Translations under genes and position numbers: made by a program
Source: a bacterium HR27
Lineage (GTDB): Bacteria > Chloroflexota > Chloroflexia > Thermomicrobiales > Thermomicrobiaceae
Assembly (NCBI GenBank): GCA_002898975.1
Contig: BEID01000010.1
Coordinates: 1 to 11,794, forward strand
DNA: 11,794 bases
Direction of reading: 5' to 3'
Part shown: one piece after another, positions 1,505 to 11,766 of the stretch
Layout: each line of letters begins with the position of its first letter
How positions within the stretch are numbered: the stretch's first letter is position 1
The notes under the pieces: model-generated
What the model was told of the DNA's origin: nothing
What the model saw: the letters and a program-made list of their open reading frames with translations, nothing else
The model's database searches: none

Positions 1505-3613
1505 TCACCAAGCACTGCGACCGTTGCCCAACCACGAGGCATGCACCGGAACCGGCCCGACCGTTTCGTCAGCCTCGCCGTACCCGTTGCCGCGCAGCGG
1601 AGTCGCTTCGTCATGGGTCGAGACCGCCGCCGACTCCGCCTCCACCCGGAACCGCTCCACCAGCTTGGCCAGCTGCTCGGCCAGCCCGACGAGGTGCTCG
1701 GCCGCAGCGGCGATCTCGCCGACCTGCGTCGCCATCTCCTCGGTCGCCGCGGAGACCTCTTCGGCAGCAGCAGCGTTCTGTTCGGCGACGGCCGTCACCT
1801 GCCGGATCGAGCCGCGCACCTGTTCGGCGGTCGAGGACAACTCACTGGCCGATGCCGCGTTCTCCTCGGCGATCGCTGCGGTGTCCTCCATCGTCGCCCG
1901 CAACTCGGCGCTCCGCTTGGCGATCTCCTCGAGCGACTGCAGCAGCTCCTGGTTCCGCTGCGCGACTTCCTCGGCTGCCTGGCGGATCGCCGCGAAGACC
2001 TCCGCCACTTCCCGTGCCTCGCTGCTCACCTGGGCGACAGAGCCGGCGCTCTCGGCCATCGCTGTCACGGCCTGCTCCACGGTGCGCTGGATCCCCTGCA
2101 CCATCTGGGCGATCTCCTGCGTCGAGGCCGCTGAGCGCTCGGCCAGCTTGCGCACCTCCTCGGCCACGACCGCGAACCCCTTGCCCGCCTCACCGGCCCG
2201 GGCCGCCTCGATCGCTGCGTTGAGCGCCAGGAGGTTCGTCTGCTCGGTGAGATCGGTGATCACCTCGACGATCTGCCCGATCTGCTTGGAACGCTCGCCG
2301 AGCTCCTGGATCGCCCGGGCCGTCTCCTCGACCTGCTTGCGGACCTTCTCCATGGCCCCGAGCGTCCGTTGCACGACCTGCCCACCGCTCTCGGCCTGCT
2401 CGCGATTCCGACCAGCCTGCTGCGTCACTGCGCGCGCCAGCTCGCCGACCCGCTGGTTGCGCTCCGCCATCTGCTGGACCAGGTCGGTCGCCCGCTGGAG
2501 CGCGTGCCCCTGCTCCTGCGCCGCCTTGGCGACAGCCTGGATCGTCTGTGTCATCTCGTCGATCGCCGTGGAAGCGCTGGTCACCTGTTCCGCCTGTGTC
2601 GACGAGCCCTGGGCAACCTCCTGGATCGTACGGGCGACCGCATTGGTCGCGTCGGCGATCTGGGCGGAGAGTGTCTGGGTCTGCGTTCCCGCCTCGGTCA
2701 CCTGGCTCACTGCCCGGCGCACCTGGCCGACCAGCTGGGCCAGGTCAGCCAGCGCCTGTTCGAAGGTCACGCTCACGGCACGCAACCGCTCGATCATGCG
2801 GTCGAATGCGTGGGCCATCCGGGCGAGTTCGTCGCGGCCGCGCACCCCTAACGGCTCGGTGGTCACCGTGAAGCGGGCAGTGAGGTTACCGGCCGCCAGC
2901 TGAGCGAGCGCGGCCTCCAGCGCCGCCAGCTCCTGCTCCGCAAGCTGCTGGCTCGCCTTAGCGACTGCGCTCACCGTGCGCAGAGCCGGCCGCAGCACGA
3001 GCACCCCGACGACGAGCGCGACGATCGCGAGCCCAGCAGCACCGAGCATGGCGAACTGGAGCTGCGTCAAGCGCGTTTTGGCCCGCTGAGCTAACGCTGC
3101 CGCATCGGCAGTCGAAGCGCCTTCGACATCACGGATCGCCTGGAGGAGCGCGTCGAACTTTTGCGCCCCGTCACCGGTCATGTTCTGCTGCGCGGCGACG
3201 AGATCGTACTTGCGCGAGAGCTGCAGGGTGCGTTCCGCCGACTGGCGATAGGCGGTCCAAGCGTCGCGTAGCGCAGTCACCGTCGCATGCTCTTCCGGCG
3301 TGTGCGCGGTGGCCGCCAACGTGTCGAGGTCTGCGGCGATCTCTTGATCGAGCTGTGCGATCCGCTCGTCGAGTTGCTTGCGGTAATCTGCGTTGGTCGT
3401 CGCACCGACGTGCGCGACGACGTTCGTGCGCACCTCGAGCATCCGGCGTGACACCTTACTGACGGTAACCAGAACGGTATTCATCTCGCTGACTTGTTCG
3501 ACATCGTCTCGGCTATTCCCGAGCCAGAACCACCCCACCGCACCGAGCAGGACGAAGACCACCGCCATCGCGGCGATGATGCCGAGGACCTTTTCGCGGA
3601 AACCGACCGTCAT
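1505..3613 (-). CDS. Methyl-accepting chemotaxis protein (transmembrane receptor)
   Basis: This is a 702-aa membrane receptor that controls CheA. A short N-terminal tail leads into transmembrane helix 1 (about 9-31). Residues 32-187 are an all-helical extracytoplasmic region that looks like a four-helix-bundle sensor (4HB_MCP type), and TM2 is about 188-208. A HAMP region follows, ending near [17 protein letters not shown] (261-277). The rest is the long cytoplasmic coiled coil, with the conserved signalling tip at about 448-500 ([20 protein letters not shown] and [18 protein letters not shown]). Likely methylation segments rich in E/Q with A-S/T pairs lie near 335-360 and 585-630. The 40-residue tail lacks a C-terminal NWETF-type CheR docking peptide. 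The ATG at 3613 is preferred over the codon at 3643 because AAAGGGG precedes it by about 7 bases and TM1 then starts close to the N-terminus. The ligand cannot be inferred. Confidence 0.97.
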
Positions 3614-3656: not shown

Positions 3657-3684
3657 GTTTCGGAAGGAACTGGCTGGCACTTGA
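3657..3684 (-). promoter_or_regulatory. Candidate sigma-28 promoter of the receptor-cheA unit
   Basis: On the minus strand TCAAG (3680-3684), 16 bases, then CCGAAAC (3657-3663). This resembles the flagellar sigma-28 pattern TAAAG - about 15-16 - (G)CCGATAT. It ends 43 bases before the ATG at 3613. The -10 part lies inside a perfect 6-bp dyad with a 4-base loop, TTCCGA-ggtt-TCGGAA (3650-3665), which could be an operator or just a hairpin in the transcript. The same spacing recurs before the other three units. Confidence 0.5.
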
Positions 3685-3772
3685 GTGACGAGCGTCGATC
3701 CGGGACTTCCCGGCCAGACTGCCCCTGACCGCTTTCCTAGGACGAGCGACGCGGTGCGCTCCTGGCCCAGCC

Positions 3773-3918
3773 GGGCGCGGCGCGCTGCGCCCGGCAGCGC
3801 CTTTCGGCGCGGCAAGCGACCGCCCAGTCTTCGCACGCGGTCGAACACCCCTCACTCCCGCCGCGACCGCGACCTCCCCCTCCGCGTTGTCCCCGTAGGG
3901 GCGACGCGTGCGTCGCCC
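3773..3918 (+). repeat. 146-bp composite repeat, copy 1 (hairpin at each end)
   Basis: The unit starts with a near-perfect hairpin GGGCGCGGC-GC-GCTGCGCCC (3773-3792) and ends with a perfect one, GGGCGACGC-GT-GCGTCGCCC (3899-3918), preceded by GTAG. The same unit, inverted, is at 8854-9000. Shared blocks include the terminal hairpins, GCGGCAA.CGACCGC, GTCTTCGCACG.GGT, CCCTCAC.CCCG and CCCCCTCCGCGTTGTCCCC. I see no credible ORF in it. Confidence 0.75.
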
Positions 3919-3926
3919 ACAAACCA

Positions 3927-3986
3927 CCCCTCACCCCCGGCTCGCTCCGCTCGCCACCCCCTCTCCCGCGCGGTGCGGGAGAGGGG
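3927..3986 (+). repeat. 60-bp repeat, copy 1
   Basis: It begins CCCCTCACCCCCGGCTCGC and ends in a strong hairpin: CCCCTCTCCCGC (3958-3969), a 5-base loop, GCGGGAGAGGGG (3975-3986). The inverted copy at 8321-8380 differs by one deleted T and one extra end base, so the pair is recent or kept alike by conversion. Confidence 0.85.
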
Positions 3987-4048
3987 CACATACGTGTCGC
4001 GTCCGTCTGGGTGGAAACGGGTTCGGTTCTCCGGGCTGACGGCCCGAC

Positions 4049-4168
4049 GGGTCAGGCACGCCTGACCCCTACAGAGAGAACGGCAGGGCTGTGCGGCGAC
4101 CGTGACCAACAATCGGTGACGGTGGGTACATCGACGTCCGTCCTGTAGGGGCGAGGCGTGCCTCGCCC
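4049..4168 (-). repeat. 120-bp paired-hairpin (BIME/MITE-like) unit, copy 1
   Basis: Two hairpins face away from each other: GGGTCAGGC-AC-GCCTGACCC (4049-4068) followed by CTAC, and GTAG followed by GGGCGAGGC-GT-GCCTCGCCC (4149-4168). The interior is bounded by a perfect 9-bp inverted repeat, CCCCTACAG (4066-4074) and CTGTAGGGG (4143-4151). At its centre is an imperfect dyad, CCGTGACC...GGTGACGG. Related units in the other orientation are at 8436-8565 and 8658-8779. The interior is too short for a transposase, so any mobility would depend on an enzyme encoded elsewhere. Confidence 0.8.
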
Positions 4169-4266
4169 AGCCGCGCCGGAGGCACGGCCATTGTCACGCG
4201 TCGCCGTACTCTCGGTGCCGGCACTGCGACATACGAACGGGGTTTGCCAGCCCTACCAGACCGGAT

Positions 4267-4287
4267 GGGTCAGGCGACGCCCGACCC
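4267..4287. repeat. Degenerate hairpin of the GGGTCAGGC family
   Basis: GGGTCAGGC-GAC-GCCCGACCC is an imperfect family member, followed by a decayed second one (GGGTCACGCGGG). It lies about 55 bases beyond the stop codon of the last gene in the cheRB operon. It might help end that transcript, although no T-run follows it on the minus strand. Confidence 0.5.
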
Positions 4288-4340
4288 GACGGGTCACGCG
4301 GGTGAGAGGGGACAGGCAGTACACCCGACCGCGACAGCCG

Positions 4341-5090
4341 TCACTTCCACTGCCCGGTGCTTGCGAGCCAGGCGGTCTTGTCCTTCTCCTTACCGTCCGG
4401 CGCGCCCCACAACGCCTTCAGCGCCAGCGCCTCCGGCACCACGAAGAGCCAGACCGTCTGCTTCTCGTACTGCGGCGGTTGTCCCTTCTGCGGTTTCACC
4501 GGGCGCTCGCTGTACCCGAAGCTCGCCTGCAAGACGAGCCACTTGCCGTCGCGCAGCTCAGCGGGGAACTGGGCCGGTACCACCGCTTCCACACCGTCGA
4601 GCAGGATGTACAGCGGCCGCTCCAGCTTGTTCCGCCAGGCGCGCGCCAGCACCCCGCAGGTGACGACATTGCAGACCTCGTGATAGGCCGCGAGGTCCAT
4701 CTCCTGCGCCTCGCTGAGCTGGACGCCATCCGTGTCGACCACCGGTGCCTCGCGCGTCGCCGGCGGACGACGCATCCCGATCGCACCCCAGTCCAGCGCC
4801 TCGGCGAGCGGTTGCAGGAGAAACGCCGGTACCTGCTCGTCCTGCAGGTTCACGCGGAAGCGCGCCAGTGCCCAGCCCGACCGCGCTGGAAACTTACCCG
4901 GATCGAAGACCGCTCCGACGATCGATTCCGGTAGGAACCCGACGCTGATACCGAGCAGCGTCGAGAGGTTCTCCGCCACAGTTGGCAAGAGATACTGCTC
5001 CCAGAGCACCGCCCGGAACTTCTGCGGCACCTTCGGATTCCGCGTCAACGGTGCCGAAGCTGGGAAGACGGGTGCGACCTTGACCGACAT
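4341..5090 (-). CDS. Uncharacterised chemotaxis-operon protein with a CheC/CheX-like E-x-x-N motif
   Basis: A 249-aa soluble protein that I cannot assign to a named family. It has no signal peptide or membrane segment. The N-terminal half has a helix-like stretch (KFRAVLWEQYLLPTVAENLSTLL, roughly 24-46). At 125-155 comes LSEAQEMDLAAYHEVCNVV followed by CGVLARAW, where E138 and N141 have the spacing of the catalytic E-x-x-N of CheC and CheX phosphatases. The C-terminal part alternates beta-like segments (YILLDGVEAVVP, WLVLQASFGY, QTVWLFVVP) and ends in a Lys-rich stretch. The start at 5090 is supported by AGGAG about 6 bases upstream. It is 19 bases after the CheX-like gene and is probably translated from the same mRNA. 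A CheY-phosphate phosphatase, or a decayed CheX paralogue acting as an adaptor, would fit. A role at the motor switch is possible, but I see no FliM/FliN signature. Confidence 0.85.
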   Translation of the reverse strand: MSVKVAPVFPASAPLTRNPKVPQKFRAVLWEQYLLPTVAENLSTLLGISVGFLPESIVGAVFDPGKFPARSGWALARFRVNLQDEQVPAFLLQPLAEALDWGAIGMRRPPATREAPVVDTDGVQLSEAQEMDLAAYHEVCNVVTCGVLARAWRNKLERPLYILLDGVEAVVPAQFPAELRDGKWLVLQASFGYSERPVKPQKGQPPQYEKQTVWLFVVPEALALKALWGAPDGKEKDKTAWLASTGQWK

Positions 5091-5109
5091 CGTTCGCTCC
5101 TCGCTGCTG

Positions 5110-5622
5110 CTAGCTCTCCTTCGCGGCGAACCCGACGTCGAGCGTCGGCTGGTCCGGCAGTCCGACCTGGACCCGCACCGCCGCGCCGCTCGCCAGGCTC
5201 GCGCCGACATTGAGGCTCTTGGCCCCACTCACGTACACCGGTAACCCGAGCCCCATCTGCAACCCGACGCTCGCCAGATGGCGCTGGATTTGCCCTGCCA
5301 GGATGTTGGTGAGTTCCCGGACGGCATCTTGCAACATCTCGTCCTCCCCGTCCGGGCGCTCCCCGAGCAGCACCTCGGCGACCGAGGCGAGCGCTTCCAG
5401 CTCCCCACCCAGCCAGACGACCGCCTGGAAACCGCCTCCGCTGGTGTCGACCACCGTGACGAGCGCGATCCCGACCGGCGGATGCGCCCAGGGGAGTTCG
5501 GCCTCACCGAGTACGGTCACTTCCGCCCCGCACAGCAGCTCCAGGGCCTCACGCGCAGCTTGCCCGATGAACTCGACCAGCCGACCGCTCGTCGTCAGCT
5601 CCTGCACGATCGCGTGGCTCAC
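5110..5622 (-). CDS. cheX: CheX-like chemotaxis phosphatase
   Basis: A 170-aa protein with the fold signature of the CheX/CheC phosphatases, which remove phosphate from CheY-P and reset the motor signal. The hallmark is DAVRELTNILAGQI at 99-112: E103 and N106 are the expected catalytic pair, followed by the usual I-x-G. Beta-rich segments flank it (VGIALVTVVDT, FQAVVWLGG, VRVQVGLP). Only one E-x-x-N is seen, as in CheX rather than CheC. The GTG at 5622 is chosen because GGAAGGAG lies about 10 bases upstream. An earlier GTG at 5655 would overlap the cheY stop codon (GTGA), adding 11 residues with no family resemblance, and cannot be excluded. It sits 29 bases after cheY, its likely substrate. 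No CheZ is seen in the window. Confidence 0.88.
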   Translation of the reverse strand: MSHAIVQELTTSGRLVEFIGQAAREALELLCGAEVTVLGEAELPWAHPPVGIALVTVVDTSGGGFQAVVWLGGELEALASVAEVLLGERPDGEDEMLQDAVRELTNILAGQIQRHLASVGLQMGLGLPVYVSGAKSLNVGASLASGAAVRVQVGLPDQPTLDVGFAAKES

Positions 5623-5651
5623 GACACTGCTTCTCCTTCCGCACTGCCTCG

Positions 5652-6032
5652 TCACGCCCGAGCCAACAGCATCTCGAGCGCTGCACCGAGTGCCTCGGGC
5701 GTCACCGGCTTGGTGAGCAGGTTGTCGACCCCAGCTTCCTTCGCCTTGAGCATCTGTTCCTCGGTGCTCTGGCTGGTGATCATCAGGATAGGGGTACGCT
5801 TGCCGGTCCCCTGTTCCTTCTCACGTGCAGCGCGCACGAATTCCACGCCGTCCATGCCCGGCATGTTCCAGTCGACGATCACCAGGTCGAACTTCCCGGG
5901 CTCGAACGCGGCCAGTGCTTCCTCCCCGTTGTTCGCCTCGGTCGCTTCGACCTCGTAGCCGACCTGGCGCAACGACCGGACATGCATAACCCGCATCATT
6001 TTCGAATCGTCAGCGATGAGAACCTTCAACAC
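5652..6032 (-). CDS. cheY: Chemotaxis response regulator CheY
   Basis: A stand-alone receiver domain of 126 aa, the usual CheY length. The acidic pair is D8-D9 (LIADDSK), the phosphate acceptor is D54 (VIVDWNMPGMDG), the switch residue is T86 (LMITS) and the conserved lysine is K108 (LLTKP). The position of E. coli Tyr106 is Leu here, which occurs in other CheY proteins. Phosphorylated by CheA, it should bind the flagellar switch. The start is the GTG at 6032, with GGAGGAGG 6 bases upstream; the longer frame to 6158 runs into the preceding gene. It is 34 bases after cheRB and 29 before the CheX-like gene, consistent with one operon. Confidence 0.96.
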   Translation of the reverse strand: MLKVLIADDSKMMRVMHVRSLRQVGYEVEATEANNGEEALAAFEPGKFDLVIVDWNMPGMDGVEFVRAAREKEQGTGKRTPILMITSQSTEEQMLKAKEAGVDNLLTKPVTPEALGAALEMLLARA

Positions 6033-6066
6033 CGTCGACCTCCTCCGCTCTTCTCGATCCGCTCGC

Positions 6067-7968
6067 TCAGCTGCGGGCCAGTGCCGCACCGCGCTGAGCC
6101 CAGCGCACGACCTCACTGGGGATATCGGCAGTCGCCAGCACCTTCTGCACCCCACCACGCGCCAGTGCGGCCTCGATCATTCCCGCCACCACCGCATCTT
6201 CCGGCCGTTGCACGACGGTGTAGGCACCGGCTGCTGCCAGTTCCGCCATCCCGATCGCTCCGTCGTCACCCATTCCGGTCAGCACGACTGCCATCACCCG
6301 CGGGCCGAGTCCGGCCCGCGCCGCCGAGACGAAGGCGCGGTTCACGTTGGGCACGTAGATATCGCCCGGTTCCGGCAGCACCACCTGGATCCGCCCGGCG
6401 CGCGTGAGGAGCACGTTCCGTCCGCCCGGTGCGACGAGCAACGTGTCGGCGGTCAACAGCTCACCGTCCGCCGCCTCGTGTGCCGCGTACTGACCGACGC
6501 GAGCCAGACGTTCGGCGAAGCTGCGCGTGAAGTTGGGCGGCATGTGCTGCACGACGAGGATCCCGATCCCGAGCCCTGCCGGGAGCGCCGCAACCAGCTC
6601 GGTGACGACCGCCGGCCCACCGGTCGAGGACCCGATCAGGAGGAACCGTTCGGCCGGTCGCCGCAGCAGCTCACCCCGCGACACCGCGCCGTTCCGACCG
6701 TTGGCAGTGAGCGCACCGTTCGGCACCGCCGTCTGTCGGCTGAGGAACCCGGTTCCCAGCCGTGCTGGTGCCACAGCGCGGGGACGGGACGAGCATCGCT
6801 GGCGGGCCACCTGCACGGCGTCACCGATCTCCGGTGCCACCCGCCGCAACGCGCCCGGCACGAGTTCCGGCACCACGACGGCCGGCACGCCGCGCACCTG
6901 CGGATGACCTGGCCCGGTCACGATGACCACCGGCCACCCCTCCAGGACAGCCAGGCGCTCGAGGACCGAACGGTCTTCGAGCGCGTCCAGGAGTACGACC
7001 GCTGTTCCCTCCTCTTCGAGGTGTGCCCGCGCTTCGTCGATCGAGCGGACTTCACCGATGACCTCGATGGTGGGGAGCAGACGCAGCGCCTGCCGGATGG
7101 CAACCCGGCTGACCGGCGTATGGCTGACGAGGAGCACCCGCGTCCGCTCGCCGGATTCAGCTGTCCTGGACATCGCTGGCTGGCGCTTGCGGTACAGGTA
7201 CGCTCCTGCGACCGACACCCGCTCGAGCTCGGGCGGCGGCTTGTCGAGTGTCTCGGCCGACCCGATGACCAGGATCCCACCCGGGAGCAGCGCCTCGACG
7301 AAGCGGCGGACGATCTCGGCCCGGTGCTCGGCCGTAAAGTACATCAGCGTGTTTCGGCAGAAGATCACCGCGAAGGGCCCGGGCGAGAGTCGCTCGATGA
7401 GGTTGACCTGCTCGAAGCGCACGCGCTGGCGGATCGGTTCGCGCACGCACCACAGTTCGCCACGCTTTTCGACGTGTGACCGTGCGCGTTCCAACCCCTG
7501 GTCGCGGAACGACCACTGCCGGTAACACCCCTCCCGAGCCCGCTGTAGCGCCTCGTGGTCGAAGTCGATTCCCAAGACCTCGAACGGATGACCGAGCGGA
7601 GCCAGCACCTCCTCAGCGGTCATCGCCAGCGAGTACGGTTCCTCACCGCTCGAGCAGCCAGCCGACAGGATGCGCAGCGGCTTTTGCATCTGGGCGAGTT
7701 CGGGGAGCAGCTGACGCAGCGCGTCGAAATGCTTGGGTTCCCGGAAGAAGTAGGTCTCGTTGATCGTCAACCCCTGGCAGATCGCCTCGAGAACCGCCTG
7801 CTCACCGCGCAGCGCACGCTCCAGGAACTCGTCCACGCTGGCCGCACCGAACCGGCGCGCCTCCTGCTGCACGACGCGTGCCAGCCGCTGCCAGAGGAGT
7901 TCGGTGGGACTGAAGCCCAGACACGGGAAGACTTTTTCACCGACCTGTTTGAGGAGTTCCTCGCGCAT
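6067..7968 (-). CDS. cheRB: CheR-CheB fusion: receptor methyltransferase plus methylesterase/deamidase
   Basis: One 633-aa frame holds both adaptation enzymes. CheR (1-263) adds methyl groups from SAM to receptor glutamates; it shows NETYFFRE (70-77), the SAM loop SAGCSSGEEPYS (102-113) and FCRNTLMYF (203-211). Residues 277-378 look like a CheB receiver, but the acidic pair is replaced (VLLVSHTPVS) and the KP motif is lost (PELVP); one Asp (D328, VVLLD) remains. A disordered-looking linker (about 385-435) leads to the CheB esterase (437-630), with S448 in IGSSTGGP, H475 in VVQHMPPN and D569 in GMGDDGAIGM as the catalytic triad. There is no ribosome site before the internal ATG (codon 266), so separate CheB is not evident. 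The ATG at 7968 has AAGGAG 8 bases upstream; a GTG at 7977 is possible and adds three residues. It is first in the operon with cheY, cheX and the 249-aa gene. Confidence 0.95.
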   Translation of the reverse strand: MREELLKQVGEKVFPCLGFSPTELLWQRLARVVQQEARRFGAASVDEFLERALRGEQAVLEAICQGLTINETYFFREPKHFDALRQLLPELAQMQKPLRILSAGCSSGEEPYSLAMTAEEVLAPLGHPFEVLGIDFDHEALQRAREGCYRQWSFRDQGLERARSHVEKRGELWCVREPIRQRVRFEQVNLIERLSPGPFAVIFCRNTLMYFTAEHRAEIVRRFVEALLPGGILVIGSAETLDKPPPELERVSVAGAYLYRKRQPAMSRTAESGERTRVLLVSHTPVSRVAIRQALRLLPTIEVIGEVRSIDEARAHLEEEGTAVVLLDALEDRSVLERLAVLEGWPVVIVTGPGHPQVRGVPAVVVPELVPGALRRVAPEIGDAVQVARQRCSSRPRAVAPARLGTGFLSRQTAVPNGALTANGRNGAVSRGELLRRPAERFLLIGSSTGGPAVVTELVAALPAGLGIGILVVQHMPPNFTRSFAERLARVGQYAAHEAADGELLTADTLLVAPGGRNVLLTRAGRIQVVLPEPGDIYVPNVNRAFVSAARAGLGPRVMAVVLTGMGDDGAIGMAELAAAGAYTVVQRPEDAVVAGMIEAALARGGVQKVLATADIPSEVVRWAQRGAALARS

Positions 7969-8004
7969 ACACTGCACTCCTTACCTCACTGCTCTCAGCA
8001 GCGA

Positions 8005-8032
8005 GATACGGCAGCCGCACGATCCATCTTGA
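8005..8032 (-). promoter_or_regulatory. Candidate sigma-28 promoter of the cheRB operon
   Basis: On the minus strand TCAAG (8028-8032), 16 bases, then CCGTATC (8005-8011), preceded by G. The distance from the -10 to the ATG at 7968 is 36 bases, giving a short leader that contains the ribosome site. The -35 and the spacing match the candidate before the receptor gene. Confidence 0.5.
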
Positions 8033-8164
8033 CTCCGCTCGCTCCCTCCCACACTAGCCCGTTCGTCCTGCATCCCGGTCGCGACCGTTCCTAAGGCGGC
8101 AGGACCGGGGTTTCTCGGTCCGCGGAGGGGAGCCAGGCGCGGTGTAACCGCGGTGAGCGCGGAC

Positions 8165-8184
8165 GGGCGACGCACCCGTCGCCC
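8165..8184. repeat. Variant hairpin of the GGGCGACGC family
   Basis: GGGCGACG-CACC-CGTCGCCC has an 8-bp perfect stem and a 4-base loop instead of the usual 9 and 2. Just before it are two unrelated small dyads, GGACCG...CGGTCC (8102-8121) and CGCGGT-gta-ACCGCG (8138-8152). I see nothing else between 8033 and 8258. Confidence 0.55.
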
Positions 8185-8259
8185 CGACAGGGTTGGGCTG
8201 GTACCTGACGGCCGCCCGTGCATCGTCTCCCTGCGCCGCGCATGCAGCCGTCACCTCCC

Positions 8260-8306
8260 GTAGGGGTCACGCGTGCGTGACCCTTCGGGTCAGGGGTGCC
8301 TGACCT
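8260..8306 (+). repeat. GTAG followed by two tandem hairpins
   Basis: GTAG, then GGGTCACGC-GT-GCGTGACCC (8264-8283), TTC, then GGGTCAGGG-GT-GCCTGACCT (8287-8306). The first stem is perfect and the second has end mismatches. The same hairpin-TTC-hairpin arrangement occurs at 8546-8588 and 8760-8802. Confidence 0.8.
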
Positions 8307-8320
8307 GCGGAGCCCCCCTG

Positions 8321-8380
8321 CCCCCTCTCCCGCACCGCGCGGGGAGGGGGTGGCGAGCGGAGCGAGCCGGGGGTGAGGGG
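8321..8380 (-). repeat. 60-bp repeat, copy 2 (inverted)
   Basis: Read on the minus strand, this is the 60-bp unit of 3927-3986 with a single T missing in the hairpin arm and one extra G at the end. The near-identity contrasts with the looser match of the longer repeats. Confidence 0.85.
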
Positions 8381-8418
8381 TGTCCAGCCTGGCGTTGTGC
8401 CACCGCGGTTCGCTGTCC

Positions 8419-8435
8419 GCGCCTGCGGCGCGTCC
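8419..8435 (+). repeat. GCGCC-TGC-GGCGC mini-hairpin, copy 1
   Basis: A 5-bp stem (6 bp with the flanking C/G) placed directly before the CGAGGC hairpin, separated by GTCC. It recurs at 8640-8653 with a 4-base loop and at 8834-8852 with an 8-bp stem, each time on the non-GTAG side of a main hairpin. It therefore seems to be a regular part of the composite element. Confidence 0.55.
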
Positions 8436-8565
8436 GGGCGAGGCACGCCTCGCCCCTACACGGTTACAGGGCGGGGAACGATACGCCGACCGTGGTCGGT
8501 CGTCGGTCACGGTGGCTGCTGCCGCGCCGCCGTTGCCCCCTGTAGGGGTCAGGCGTGCCTGACCC
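8436..8565 (+). repeat. 130-bp paired-hairpin (BIME/MITE-like) unit, copy 2
   Basis: GGGCGAGGC-AC-GCCTCGCCC (8436-8455) followed by CTAC, then an interior, then GTAG and GGGTCAGGC-GT-GCCTGACCC (8546-8565). The interior ends are CCCCTACA and TGTAGGGG. The centre again has a dyad, ACCGTG...CACGGT, but the rest of the interior has diverged from the other two copies. Confidence 0.78.
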
Positions 8566-8568
8566 TTC

Positions 8569-8611
8569 GGGTCACGCGTGCGTGACCCTTCAGGTCAGGG
8601 GTGCCTGACCC
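8569..8611 (+). repeat. Two extra tandem hairpins attached to copy 2
   Basis: GGGTCACGC-GT-GCGTGACCC (8569-8588) and AGGTCAGGG-GT-GCCTGACCC (8592-8611), each separated from its predecessor by TTC. With 8546-8565 they make a run of three hairpins at a 23-base period. Confidence 0.8.
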
Positions 8612-8639
8612 GTCCGGTCCGTACTCGGTCACCATGGCC

Positions 8640-8779
8640 GCGCCTTGCGGCGCGTCCGGGCGAGGCACGCCTCGCCCCTACAGGACGGGCGTCGATGCAC
8701 CCGCCGTCACCGATTGGTGGTCACGGTCCCTACGATGGCCCCGGCGTTTCCCCCTGGAGGGGTCAGGCGTGCCTGACCC
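8640..8779 (+). repeat. Mini-hairpin plus 122-bp paired-hairpin unit, copy 3
   Basis: The mini-hairpin GCGCC-TTGC-GGCGC (8640-8653) precedes GGGCGAGGC-AC-GCCTCGCCC (8658-8677) with CTAC. The far end is GGGTCAGGC-GT-GCCTGACCC (8760-8779), where the expected GTAG has become GGAG. The interior is very close to the inverted copy at 4049-4168: the ATCGGTGACGG and GACCGTGACCA core blocks and the CATCGACG block are shared. Confidence 0.8.
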
Positions 8780-8782
8780 TTC

Positions 8783-8802
8783 GGGTCACGCGTGCGTGAC
8801 CC
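8783..8802 (+). repeat. Single hairpin, TCACGC type
   Basis: GGGTCACGC-GT-GCGTGACCC, a perfect 9-bp stem, separated by TTC from the previous hairpin. A small CCGGCCC/GGGCCGG dyad follows at 8808-8821. Confidence 0.8.
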
Positions 8803-8833
8803 GTCCGGCCCGGGAGGGCCGGGAACCTACGTA

Positions 8834-9000
8834 CCCGCGCCTGCGGCGCGGGCGGGCGACGCACGCGTCGCCCCTACGGGGACAACGCGGAGGGGGCGGC
8901 CGCAGGAGCGACGGGGGTGAGGGATGTCCCACCACGTGCGAAGACCTGTGCGGTCGATTGCCGCACCTCGCGGCGCGGCCGGGCACGGCACGCCGCGCCT
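8834..9000 (-). repeat. 146-bp composite repeat, copy 2 (inverted), with mini-hairpin
   Basis: The mini-hairpin CCCGCGCC-TGC-GGCGCGGG (8834-8852) adjoins GGGCGACGC-AC-GCGTCGCCC (8854-8873) and CTAC. Reading on the minus strand from 9000, the unit follows the order of 3773-3918, with an outer hairpin GGGCACGGC-AC-GCCGCGCCT (8981-9000). Several substitutions separate the two copies. Confidence 0.75.
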
Positions 9001-9077
9001 TGCCAGGGCGTGGTCGGTTGGCGATGGTCGCCTGCCGCTCGCCGACCTCCGTTCCCCAAACCACGAATCCCCCGCAC

Positions 9078-9098
9078 GGGTCACGCACGCGTGAACCC
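9078..9098. repeat. Hairpin, TCACGC type with a one-base bulge
   Basis: GGGTCACGC-AC-GCGTGAACCC has one extra A in the right arm and is followed by a CGGCC-ggag-GGCCG dyad. It lies about 100 bases beyond the stop of the 193-aa gene. The remaining DNA from 9001 to 9198 shows no gene or other clear feature. Confidence 0.6.
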
Positions 9099-9198
9099 GT
9101 CGGCCGGAGGGCCGGGAAACACGATCCGGCAGGGCCGGACGCTGCGTGCTGCGCCCCGCCGACCGAAGCCAACAGGACGGCGCTGGATACGGTACGCG

Positions 9199-9780
9199 CT
9201 ACCGGACGACCGCACCCTGCCTCGTCGCTTCGCCACGCAGGAAGGACAACGCCAGGAACTGCCAGTCGAGCGTCAGGCGCGTGGCACGGATCCGCTCGAG
9301 GAGACCGCTGTCCTCGACGCGCAGGAGCAGCTCGGCCTGCTCGCCCTGAGCCGCTCGAGCACGGGCAGCCGAGACGCGCAGCCCGCCCAGGTCGACGGCA
9401 GCCCGCTCGACGGTCGGCGCGCGCTCCTGCGATGGTCCGGTCGTCGGCAGCTGGGCCACCAGCTGCTGGAAGATGCTGGGAGCTGCTGCGAGCTGTCCCT
9501 CCCAGCCCCGGCCGTACGCGTCGCGGACCGCGACCCGCTGGCTGGCGAGGTCGACCAGGAACCAGGTGGTGACACCGTGGACCGCCAGCGCGCCGCGCAC
9601 CCGGAGCGGGCGACCATCGGCGGCCCGGTCGACCGTCAGCTCGGCGAGCGCGACGACCGGTGCCGGCGCTGGCCGGCTGGCACTCGCGGTGAGGCGCTGG
9701 CGGGCCGGTGCGAGGTCGAGTCGCTCGGCGAGCGTCGCGCCCCCGGCTAGCATGGCTTTCCTCGATACAGCACTCGTCAC
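9199..9780 (-). CDS. Uncharacterised protein next to flagellin
   Basis: I do not recognise this 193-aa protein. It has no signal peptide, membrane helix or cysteine and is rich in Ala, Arg and Leu. The N-terminal 45 residues are probably disordered (SASRPAPAPVV). A beta-rich core (about 43-100: VALAELTVD, LRVRGALAVHG, TWFLVDLASQRVAVRDAYG) is followed by a predicted amphipathic helix (PSIFQQLVAQLP), another Ala-rich helix and a hydrophobic C-terminal segment (LTLDWQFLALSFLRG). Of three possible starts, the GTG at 9780 has GAGGAG at the best spacing (8 bases); GTG at 9786 and ATG at 9753 are alternatives. A candidate sigma-28 promoter sits 52 bases upstream. Its place after flagellin and that promoter suggest a late flagellar or motility role, such as an export, capping or glycosylation helper; this is inference only. 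Confidence 0.8.
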   Translation of the reverse strand: MTSAVSRKAMLAGGATLAERLDLAPARQRLTASASRPAPAPVVALAELTVDRAADGRPLRVRGALAVHGVTTWFLVDLASQRVAVRDAYGRGWEGQLAAAPSIFQQLVAQLPTTGPSQERAPTVERAAVDLGGLRVSAARARAAQGEQAELLLRVEDSGLLERIRATRLTLDWQFLALSFLRGEATRQGAVVR

Positions 9781-9831
9781 ACTCACTGCTCCTCACGCAC
9801 CGGGTGTCACCGCTTACCTCGTCGTACGGGG

Positions 9832-9859
9832 AAAACGGGGTTCCCTGTCCCGTCCTCGA
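9832..9859 (-). promoter_or_regulatory. Candidate sigma-28 promoter of the 193-aa gene
   Basis: On the minus strand TCGAG (9855-9859), 16 bases, then CCGTTTT (9832-9838). This is the weakest -10 of the four candidates. It lies just past the flagellin terminator, where a new promoter would be expected. Confidence 0.35.
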
Positions 9860-9867
9860 AGACGACG

Positions 9868-9897
9868 ACGCCCCGACCGGGATACCGGCCGGGGCGT
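9868..9897 (-). terminator. Hairpin terminator of flagellin
   Basis: In the minus-strand RNA there is a 13-bp stem with a UAUC loop and one G-U pair (arms 9885-9897 and 9868-9880), starting 15 bases after the flagellin stop codon. It is followed by CGTCGTCTTC rather than a true T-run, so termination may be partial or factor-assisted. Confidence 0.65.
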
Positions 9898-9912
9898 GCT
9901 GCGCGCGCTCGC

Positions 9913-11463
9913 CTAGCGCAGGAGCTGCAGGACCGACTGCGGGATCGCGTTGGCCTGGGCCAGGACGGCCACACCGGCCTGCTGGAGGATCTGGTTGCGG
10001 GTGAAGGTGACCATCTCCGCCGCCATGTCGACGTCGCGGATCCGGCTCTCCGAGGCGGTGAGGTTCTCGTTCTGGACGCCCAGGTTGGCGATCGTGTGCT
10101 CGAGCCGGTTCTGCGCCGCACCGAGCTCGGAGCGGACGTTGTTCACGTAGCTGATGGCGCCGTCGATCGCCGTGATGAGGTCCTTGGCTGCCTGGACTTG
10201 TTGCGCGTTCGTACCGGGTGAGCTGTCGACCTGGTTCGCGAAATTGTTCAGCTGCGTGTAGAGGTTCTGCAGCGCCGCGGGTGTCGCGCTGTTGTTATCG
10301 ACCAGGACACGGCTGAAGGCAACCAAATAGCTGTGCCCACTGTTCGGACCGACCTGGAAGTGGGCTGACCCGTCCCCGCTGGTCGTGAGCACGTAGCGGT
10401 CCAGCCCGTAGCCGATGTCGTCCTTGCTGGCGAAGCCGGTGGTCGTCTCGAAGGTGATCTCCACGCCGAGCGCCTCGAAGTTCAGCGTGAAGCGCCCACC
10501 CGCTGCGACCGAGGCGGGCAGATCGAGGCTCTGCGCGGCACCGTCCGAGCCGCGTGTTAGGGTAATCTGCTGCGTGGTCGCGTTGTAGCTGAACGTGTAG
10601 GTATCGCTCGCCAGCGCACCGCTCACGTCGATCGCCGCCACGTGGCCGAGCGCGGTCCGGATCGGCGTATTGGGCGTCCCACGGAGGTCCGAGGTCGCGG
10701 CCACGACACCACTACTGTCGACCTCGATGCTCCGCCCCTCGAGCGCGCGACCGAGCAGGTCAGCCGTGCGGAAGCCAGCGCTGATGTTTAGCGTGAACCC
10801 GTTACCCGATCCGTCATCGAACGTGACAGTCTGTGGGCCCGGGGTATACGCGTTATCAGCCGGCAGAGATGCGTAGAACGTCGTGCTTCCATCGGTGGCC
10901 GTGAGCTGGTTCGTGGTCTCATCGTACGAGATCGTGTACGTCCCAGCAGCGACGGTTCCGTTGACGGTGAGACCAGTGACCGTCCCCTCGCCGCCGACGC
11001 GGCTGCCGACGGCGAAAGCCGATGCCGAATCGACACTGGTCGCCAGCGAGCCGGTGAGGAGCAACTTGCCGTTGAAGGTGGTCCGGTTGGCGATCGCGTT
11101 GACCTCCTGCTGCAGGTTTTGCAGCTCGCTGTTGATCGCCGCCCGGTCTTCCGTCGTCAGCGTATCGTTCGCAGCCTGGACAGCCAGCTCGCGCATGCGC
11201 TGGAGCATCGAGTGCACTTCGTTCAGTGCACCTTCGGCCGTCTGGATCATCGAGACGCCGTCCTGGGCGTTGCGCATCGCCTGCTGGATGCCGCGGATCT
11301 GGGCCCGCAGCTTCTCGGAGATCGAGAGCCCGGCCGCGTCGTCAGCCGCTCGGTTGATGCGCAAGCCGCTCGAGAGCTTCTCGATCGACTTGGCCAGGGC
11401 GAACCCGGTGATCGAGAGGTTGCGCTGCGCGTTGACCGCGTTGATGTTGTTGTAGATCCGCAT
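9913..11463 (-). CDS. fliC: Flagellin
   Basis: This 516-aa protein is the filament subunit, exported through the flagellar apparatus and assembled outside the cell. The N-terminal D0/D1 is conserved over residues 1-140 (MRIYNNINAVNAQRNL, KLSSGLRINRAADDAAGLSI, NAQDGVSMIQTAEGAL, RTTFNGKLLLTG). The C-terminal D1/D0 is conserved over about 405-516 (GAAQNRLEHTIANL, ESRIRDVDMAAEMV, ILQQAGVAVLAQAN) and ends in the usual LLR. The central 150-400 is the variable surface region. It contains two similar units (about 168-240 and 281-353), each with a TYT-x-SY-x-x-TT-x-Q-x-T-x-T strand pair and a later F(T)LN...F segment. There is no cysteine. The start at 11463 has AAGGGAGG upstream and matches other flagellins. 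Strong terminator and promoter signals flank it, so it is probably a single-gene unit. Confidence 0.98.
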   Translation of the reverse strand: MRIYNNINAVNAQRNLSITGFALAKSIEKLSSGLRINRAADDAAGLSISEKLRAQIRGIQQAMRNAQDGVSMIQTAEGALNEVHSMLQRMRELAVQAANDTLTTEDRAAINSELQNLQQEVNAIANRTTFNGKLLLTGSLATSVDSASAFAVGSRVGGEGTVTGLTVNGTVAAGTYTISYDETTNQLTATDGSTTFYASLPADNAYTPGPQTVTFDDGSGNGFTLNISAGFRTADLLGRALEGRSIEVDSSGVVAATSDLRGTPNTPIRTALGHVAAIDVSGALASDTYTFSYNATTQQITLTRGSDGAAQSLDLPASVAAGGRFTLNFEALGVEITFETTTGFASKDDIGYGLDRYVLTTSGDGSAHFQVGPNSGHSYLVAFSRVLVDNNSATPAALQNLYTQLNNFANQVDSSPGTNAQQVQAAKDLITAIDGAISYVNNVRSELGAAQNRLEHTIANLGVQNENLTASESRIRDVDMAAEMVTFTRNQILQQAGVAVLAQANAIPQSVLQLLR

Positions 11464-11614
11464 CGTCGGCCTCCCTTGCCGTTCGAGTCACGACCAGCAC
11501 GTCCCTGCGCTGGCCCGTCGTTCCCGAAAACCTCGCGACCGTTTCGCCGTCGCGCGCGGTCGACCTCGCTTCGTGCCGCCTCACCCGGCGGCGGGGCCTC
11601 CTTTCTGCTCTGGT
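11464..11614 (-). other. Probable long 5' leader of flagellin mRNA
   Basis: If the promoter at 11615-11642 is right, the leader is roughly 140 bases. It can form GCGAC...GTCGC and CCAGC...GCTGG stem-loops (the latter at 11494-11513, 30 bases before the ATG). The ribosome site AAGGGAGG is unpaired in these simple models. No ORF with a credible start is seen. Confidence 0.35.
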
Positions 11615-11642
11615 GTTTCGGCAGGCGACGCGCTGGGCTCGA
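11615..11642 (-). promoter_or_regulatory. Candidate sigma-28 promoter of flagellin
   Basis: On the minus strand TCGAG (11638-11642), 16 bases, then CCGAAAC (11615-11621), preceded by G, giving GCCGAAAC against the sigma-28 consensus GCCGATAA/T. The -10 is identical to that of the receptor gene. A separate 12-bp palindrome, CCGATCGATCGG (11698-11709), lies 56 bases further upstream and could be an operator, with little support. Confidence 0.5.
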
Positions 11643-11766
11643 TAGGGAAGGAAGTACCGGTTCCTACGCGGTATGCGCTGACACCGGTGAGCTGGAACCG
11701 ATCGATCGGCAAAGGACATGACGCGTGTCCTCTGCAGCCGGGCGAGGCCTGCCGTTCCCGCGGGGC

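Follow-up and report, generated by a model that had tools for sequence, protein, structure and literature searches.

Among the Escherichia coli sites of the sigma factor FliA (sigma-28) given in the available text of PMC4183435, the flgKL site carries TCAAG and the tsr site CCGAAA. In Bacillus subtilis, the leader of the flagellin gene hag is controlled by CsrA and FliW, according to the accessible part of PMC6529632. Thermomicrobium roseum is described as non-motile, yet its megaplasmid holds a full flagellar gene set, in which the accessible part of PMC2615216 places fliA and flgM. Here we analyse a stretch of 11,794 nucleotides (the window), which is a complete contig (BEID01000010.1) of the draft genome of bacterium HR27, of the Thermomicrobiaceae (2,073,354 bases, 419 contigs, 62.6% complete). 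Four copies of one spaced motif, TCRAG-N16-CCGWWWY, precede its flagellin gene, a receptor-cheA unit, a cheRB unit and a gene of 193 amino acids (aa). Sequence comparison makes it very probable that the motifs at flagellin, receptor-cheA and cheRB are FliA promoters. The one at the 193-aa gene probably matches by chance, and the flagellin messenger RNA (mRNA) leader is probably under CsrA/FliW control.

Conserved motifs of probable promoters

All four motifs are on the minus strand and were found where an earlier note on this DNA had placed them. Before flagellin (11615-11642), TCGAG (11638-11642) is followed after 16 bases by CCGAAAC (11615-11621); before cheRB (8005-8032), TCAAG is followed at the same distance by CCGTATC, and before receptor-cheA (3657-3684) by CCGAAAC. 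The fourth exact match (9832-9859) precedes the 193-aa gene and sits just beyond a GC-rich hairpin recognised by eye after flagellin (about 9869-9896). The pattern matches the window exactly four times. Dinucleotide shuffles of the window gave 0.04 expected matches and at most 1, and none of 200 reached 4; as the pattern had been written from these same four sites, this figure overstates significance and was not taken as proof.

The spacer of exactly 16 bases, which the earlier note had stressed, recurs exactly in Thermomicrobium relatives. Both flagellin boxes are present at this spacing in each of the 6 Thermomicrobium genomes that could be assessed, as TCGAG, 16 bases, CCGAAA, save for TCGTG in G001 and TCCAG in T. 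roseum. All 7 Thermomicrobium genomes have a receptor-cheA site (TGAAG in G005), and 5 of the 7 have one before cheRB, with TCATG in the case of T. roseum. Three sister-genus genomes carry the textbook sequence TAAAGTTT-N11-GCCGATAC at the corresponding position upstream of flagellin, and other genera have TCAAG or TAAAG, 15 or 16 bases, then CCGA or TCGA. Site-anchored mean pairwise identity, calculated on 5 flagellin, 6 receptor and 4 cheRB rows chosen for having a site (site-less rows being left out), was 0.91, 0.93 and 0.85, respectively, for the boxes and 0.41, 0.46 and 0.38 for 15 spacer bases. It was 0.54, 0.35 and 0.42 upstream of the site, and 0.79, 0.46 and 0.33 downstream, the high flagellin value being due to the conservation of the flagellin leader itself.

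No comparable site was found before the 193-aa gene in the six other Thermomicrobium genomes, where best scores ranged from -2.5 to 3.8 (start positions were extrapolated in some of them). With TCRAG-N16-CCGAAAC or TCRAG-N16-CCGTATC, the flagellin, receptor and cheRB sites agree with the sigma-28 form, which has a TAAAG-like -35 box and a GCCGATA-like -10 box at 15-16 bases; the site before the 193-aa gene is the poorest of the four. Sites are kept upstream of orthologous late flagellar genes in the case of flagellin, receptor, cheRB and flaG.

Over the entire draft (G000), the pattern has 19 matches and the reversed pattern 2. The four sites of the window are intergenic, 13, 27, 45 and 151 bases upstream of an open reading frame (ORF); 14 of the remaining 15 matches lie within ORFs and one overlaps an ORF. 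It is through its place rather than its count that the motif is informative. These positions come from a simple ORF caller. When flagellin promoters of other genera alone were used to build a small matrix, the four sites ranked 3, 8, 16 and 2607 among 94,032 placements, the 2607th being that of the 193-aa gene.

Of 61 genomes compared, 13, among them five from the window's genus, scored above the cut-off of hidden Markov model TIGR02479 (FliA/WhiG), and all 13 have a good flagellin match. Flagellin was matched in 15 of the 61: the 13 with FliA, the window's own genome, and G018, whose match is weak and FlgL-like only. Genes csrA and fliW were each found in 14 of 20 genomes searched, namely the 13 with FliA and G018 (csrA above cut-off in 10 of 14), and they adjoin flgL in relatives. 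In relatives, fliA, csrA and fliW therefore co-occur with flagellin; neither csrA nor fliW was matched in the window's 62.6%-complete draft. All three genes are presumably present in the window's own species.

Sites at further flagellar genes

In a held-out test, a matrix made from sites of G000 to G006 only was used to scan 28 T. roseum units. Scores were 13.8 for flagellin, 18.2 for cheRB, 19.0 for the receptor, 12.6 for flaG-fliD-fliS-fliT and 14.7 for a PilZ gene. The 12 non-flagellar units scored at most 9.0, and the relative of the 193-aa gene 1.5. In a second scan the matrix was extended with other genera, flaG being in neither training set; before counting, we removed the second-receptor rows outside T. 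roseum, in which the first receptor had been matched again, and the flagellin row of G002, whose contig starts within the gene. The flaG site scored 17.0-17.9 in 5 of 5 genomes, and 35 control rows (fliP, fliA, flbD, PucR, HicB, NUDIX) at most 9.0. Scores of the PilZ site in five genomes were 15.0, 13.1, 8.1, 8.1 and 4.0, the site being weaker or absent in some relatives; flgK scored 5.9-8.4 and flgM 7.0-10.2 in six genomes, with TTCAG or TTTAG 16 bases from CCGATA before flgM in five of the six. Since these scores are near or below those of controls, flgM, flgK and most PilZ sites are proposed on position and appearance, not on score.

When 20 flagellar stretches from 13 genomes were scanned with a stricter pattern, T[AC]AAG-N14-16-CCGA[TA][AG], 18 sites emerged: 7 at flagellin, 4 at the receptor, 2 at flgK, 2 at a 128-aa gene that follows flagellin, and 3 within ORFs or unplaced. 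A wider pattern, TCNWG-N15-GCCGAWMV, was rejected as too loose, with 13-63 matches per genome or record. In 31 loci inspected it gave 33 sites, 26 in ORFs and 7 intergenic according to a simple caller, whose labels are rough, as it also placed the T. roseum flagellin promoter within an ORF. Seven of its 34 matches in G000 were inspected (C3, C7, C10, C12, C16, C137 and C294; among these, C137, C16 and C294 were chosen for closeness to consensus), and only those of C10, which is the window, and C294 were intergenic. On contig C294 (L306 2695-2722, minus strand), TCAAG-N16-CCGATAA stands 10 bases before a second receptor ORF, whose methyl-accepting chemotaxis protein signalling domain was matched at E 6.5e-45.

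In T. roseum, the YcgR-like PilZ gene scanned above (L266 4090-4782, minus strand) is divergent from flagellin and has TCCAG-N16-CCGATAC 55 bases before its start; a PilZ domain is present in its product, and the YcgR-type N-domain scored 22.0 against a cut-off of 23. In two Thermomicrobium genomes (L286 and L289, position 1501), TCCAG-N16-CCGATAG lies 21 bases upstream of a 394-aa gene, which resembles a membrane metalloprotease.

Upstream box and flagellin leader

Next to the flagellin promoter, on the minus strand, lies a box, GGTACTTCCTTCCC (11645-11658), which is a possible activator site. Its pattern, GGTACTNNYTTCCC, was picked after viewing the flagellin and receptor upstream regions. 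It has 11 occurrences in seven same-genus genomes, 8 of which are at flagellin (5) or receptor (3) promoters; the ORFs downstream of the other 3 are not flagellar. The box is upstream of the flagellin -35 box in G000, G001, G003, G005 and G006. In three of these genomes, G003, G005 and G006, all placed in the window's genus, it also stands at a distance of 25-26 bases from the -35 box of the receptor. Besides the window, it was noted at loci L260, L261 and L262. Between flagellin and receptor promoters its position shifts by 9-10 bases, about one helical turn. T. roseum has it at flagellin and not at the receptor; the receptor promoters of G000, G001 and G002 are likewise devoid of it, and the TCAAG and CCGAAA boxes stay in place at all four. 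Seven genomes of other genera have 3 occurrences, with no recognisable flagellar gene among the downstream ORFs shown, and the reversed pattern occurs 3 times across all 14 genomes. A protein may bind the box. Sigma-54 was considered for it and set aside, as the -12 GC expected of sigma-54 promoters is missing.

The flagellin mRNA leader, of about 145 nt (11464-11608, minus strand), is conserved in an alignment of relatives. Its elements, all on the same strand, are shared by 13 leaders. The core, GGTCGACCG in the window (11557-11565) and GGTCAACCG in most relatives, reads GGTC[AG]ACCG in 13 of 13. It is followed by a hairpin, GCGAC-N9-GTCGC (11535-11553), of 5 pairs, with 100% of cells paired and 2 pairs changed on both sides, and by a hairpin of 7 pairs with loop AGGGAC, a CsrA-type site (11494-11513), which has 93.4% of its cells paired and likewise 2 pairs with changes on both sides. 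By alignment, GGA is in the loop of this hairpin, near the ribosome-binding site, in all 13 leaders. The ribosome-binding site is itself enclosed in a small hairpin, GGC-AAGGGAG-GCC (11468-11480), whose 3 pairs are invariant and so have no support from covariation.

Taken together, the 15 pairs of the structure are formed in 96.9% of cells, 4 of them changing on both sides, and slid versions of the structure pair at 20.0-45.6%. None of 500 shuffles reached the observed value on four of five measures; 352 did on the fifth (further pair types). The 13 sequences behind these figures are few and related. Folded singly, four leaders out of five were ordinary, with z between -0.6 and -1.7, and one reached z -4.0. 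Rfam gave nothing over the window leader at E up to 1, and for nine loci at E up to 5 six weak matches, all below gathering score and none a riboswitch. A described Rfam family, the c-di-GMP-I riboswitch included, was thus rejected for the leader, with no match from Rfam models. A covariance model of the leader, run on 41 genomes, recovered the 13 sequences from which it had been built at 83.6-118.6 bits. Nothing else reached 27 bits, either there or among 301 genomes from the phylum, so that the family could not be extended; five of 22 weak matches were opened and showed no flagellin leader. The core was found in none of 70 stretches upstream of flagellin matches outside Thermomicrobiaceae. 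Core and hairpin were seen before flagellin only, in 13 genomes.

In metagenome-assembled genomes labelled Actinomycetota (L186, L191, L194, L198 and L201), another conserved stretch of the flagellin leader was noticed by eye around GTTCAGGGAAGGACGGTGATGCC.

Genes of the window

The megaplasmid of T. roseum DSM 5159 matches the window at 82.1% over 56%, and on this and the placement of relatives in its genus the window is assigned to Thermomicrobium. The gene order annotated in T. roseum is the same. The window encodes, all on the minus strand, CheA, cut at the window end (1-1467; Hpt, H-kinase_dim, HATPase_c), a methyl-accepting chemotaxis receptor (1505-3613; MCPsignal 5.7e-42), a 249-aa protein (4341-5090), the phosphatase CheX (5110-5625; CheX 7.4e-11), a CheY-like response regulator (5652-6032; Response_reg 1.5e-26), a CheR-CheB fusion (6067-7968; CheR 5.3e-48, CheB 3.5e-48), a 195-aa ORF (9199-9786), which is the 193-aa gene of the earlier note, and flagellin (9913-11463, 516 aa; Flagellin_N 5.7e-46, Flagellin_C 2e-30). 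Neither the 195-aa ORF nor its T. roseum relative has a Pfam match. For the receptor, ATG 3613 is the more likely start, judged by eye and from the T. roseum annotation (a start at GTG 3643 would leave nearly no leader); for CheR-CheB, ATG 7968 is more likely than GTG 7977, by eye.

The 249-aa protein, encoded by the final gene of the cheRB unit and also without Pfam match, invariably follows cheX and is 88-92% identical among same-genus genomes and about 70% in a sister genus, which makes it a conserved but uncharacterised member of the chemotaxis cluster. Palindromic repeats rich in GC, variants of GGGTCAGGCGTGCCTGACCC and GGGCGAGGCACGCCTCGCCC, were seen by eye to fill the intergenic parts of the window at about 3880-4340 and 8160-9160.

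Discussion

If flagellin, receptor-cheA and cheRB are read by FliA, RNA polymerase carrying this factor would bind at these sites, contacting TCRAG near -35 and a CCGAAAC-like sequence near -10, 16 bases apart, and transcription would start there. Filament, receptor and adaptation genes would then be switched on together and late, once the anti-sigma factor FlgM has left the cell, by analogy with other bacteria and given flgM in T. roseum. Flagellin would be controlled again at translation, through the leader hairpins that resemble CsrA sites. The earlier note had proposed sigma-28-like promoters for a single late regulon of four units. For filament, receptor and adaptation genes the proposal holds up, given the recurrence of the sites, the textbook site of the sister genus and the co-occurrence of FliA with flagellin; for the gene of 193 aa it finds no support, a comparable site being present in 0 of 6 relatives.

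Several results weigh against the FliA reading. The bare pattern is not enriched with the flagellum: it has 7-25 matches in the 13 FliA genomes, and 27, 27 and 35 in three genomes without flagellin match. In five Thermomicrobium genomes, flagellin and receptor promoters make up 6 of 93 matches, the remaining 87 being unclassified. The genome-wide enrichment suggested as a check was thus seen by position only, the matches of G000 that are clear of ORFs being these four. The best window score of the other-genera matrix, 11.5, equals the mean best of 40 shuffles, 11.5. The score of a single site was therefore not accepted as proof by itself, and the case is made by position and conservation. G005 and G006 have no cheRB site. 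In T. roseum, flgE (12.4) and flbD (10.9), which would not be expected among the late genes, exceeded the control maximum of 9.0, while the second receptor (8.9) stayed below it, and flgM (7.2), flgK (5.8), fliP (5.0), fliA (4.8) and flgC (2.2) were not above controls, contrary to a clean late regulon. Finally, the search for a FliA/SigD gene, successful in 13 of 61 relatives, gave nothing above cut-off in the window's 62.6%-complete draft, where the best hit had 105.8 bits against a cut-off of 189.6 and reads, by eye, like a housekeeping sigma factor.

It might be that all four motifs are genuine sigma-28 promoters, the fourth having been gained in this species. That site fits the pattern exactly and is intergenic, 45 bases before its ORF, and in G007 and G012 TAAAG-N16-CCGATG stands before a different gene, the 128-aa gene that follows flagellin. 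Its lack of a counterpart in 6 of 6 relatives and its rank of 2607, against 3, 8 and 16 for the others, make this unlikely, and the motif is probably a chance match. Still less probable, in our view, is that another regulator or sigma factor binds sites that are sigma-28-like only in look, GGTACTNNYTTCCC being the true control element. That 8 of the 11 occurrences of this box lie at flagellin or receptor promoters, and that it shifts by about a helical turn between them, would agree with such a regulator; however, the box is missing at four receptor promoters where TCAAG and CCGAAA persist, and FliA accompanies flagellin among relatives. A third possibility is that the motifs merely reflect chance or the composition of GC-rich DNA: the pattern was defined post hoc, its matches elsewhere are mostly coding, and genome-wide enrichment is lacking. 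Exact recurrence at constant spacing while spacers drift, together with the held-out T. roseum result, nevertheless makes chance already unlikely for three of the sites, and we give this explanation of the motifs very little credence. We therefore retain FliA promoters at flagellin, receptor-cheA and cheRB.

This is an ordinary, expected sigma-28 regulon in a little-studied group. It provides a concrete candidate FliA motif for these thermophiles, TCRAG-N16-CCGAAAC and close forms; literature searches, which covered their sources in part, turned up no FliA motif described for this group. As promoter boxes are kept at base level while spacers drift, the flagellar system appears to be under selection. 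The structured flagellin leader and the GGTACTNNYTTCCC box are less expected findings, and the leader, a candidate new cis-regulatory RNA family, deserves study. Its CsrA/FliW layer probably belongs to a known kind, since hag of B. subtilis is controlled in this way. For the unexplained leader core (GGTC[AG]ACCG and hairpin), a literature search turned up no paper. We advance only tentatively, as somewhat less than an even bet, that flagellin of the Thermomicrobium group has two undescribed control layers: the GGTACTNNYTTCCC box, bound by an unknown activator that acts together with FliA, and a leader RNA peculiar to flagellin, in which the core supplies a switch, by sensing or by folding, on top of CsrA/FliW control.

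Compared with E. coli, as far as the available text of PMC4183435 goes, the promoters are alike in having two boxes of the TAAAG / GCCGATAA type and in their targets, the E. coli FliA regulon being made up of late genes for filament, receptors and chemotaxis. The presence of TCAAG and CCGAAA is not unusual, because E. coli FliA sites have them. Between the first box and CCG the spacing is 15 in the E. coli sites of that text and 16 here, and TCGAG and CCGAAAC are the usual flagellin forms here, unlike in E. coli. With B. subtilis hag, as portrayed in the accessible part of PMC6529632, the locus has in common that the flagellin leader forms a GGA-loop hairpin close to the ribosome-binding site, and that csrA and fliW stand beside flgL in relatives, which suggests that flagellin translation is probably controlled by CsrA and FliW here too. 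It differs from hag in the added conserved core GGTC[AG]ACCG with its hairpin, and in the small hairpin around the ribosome-binding site.

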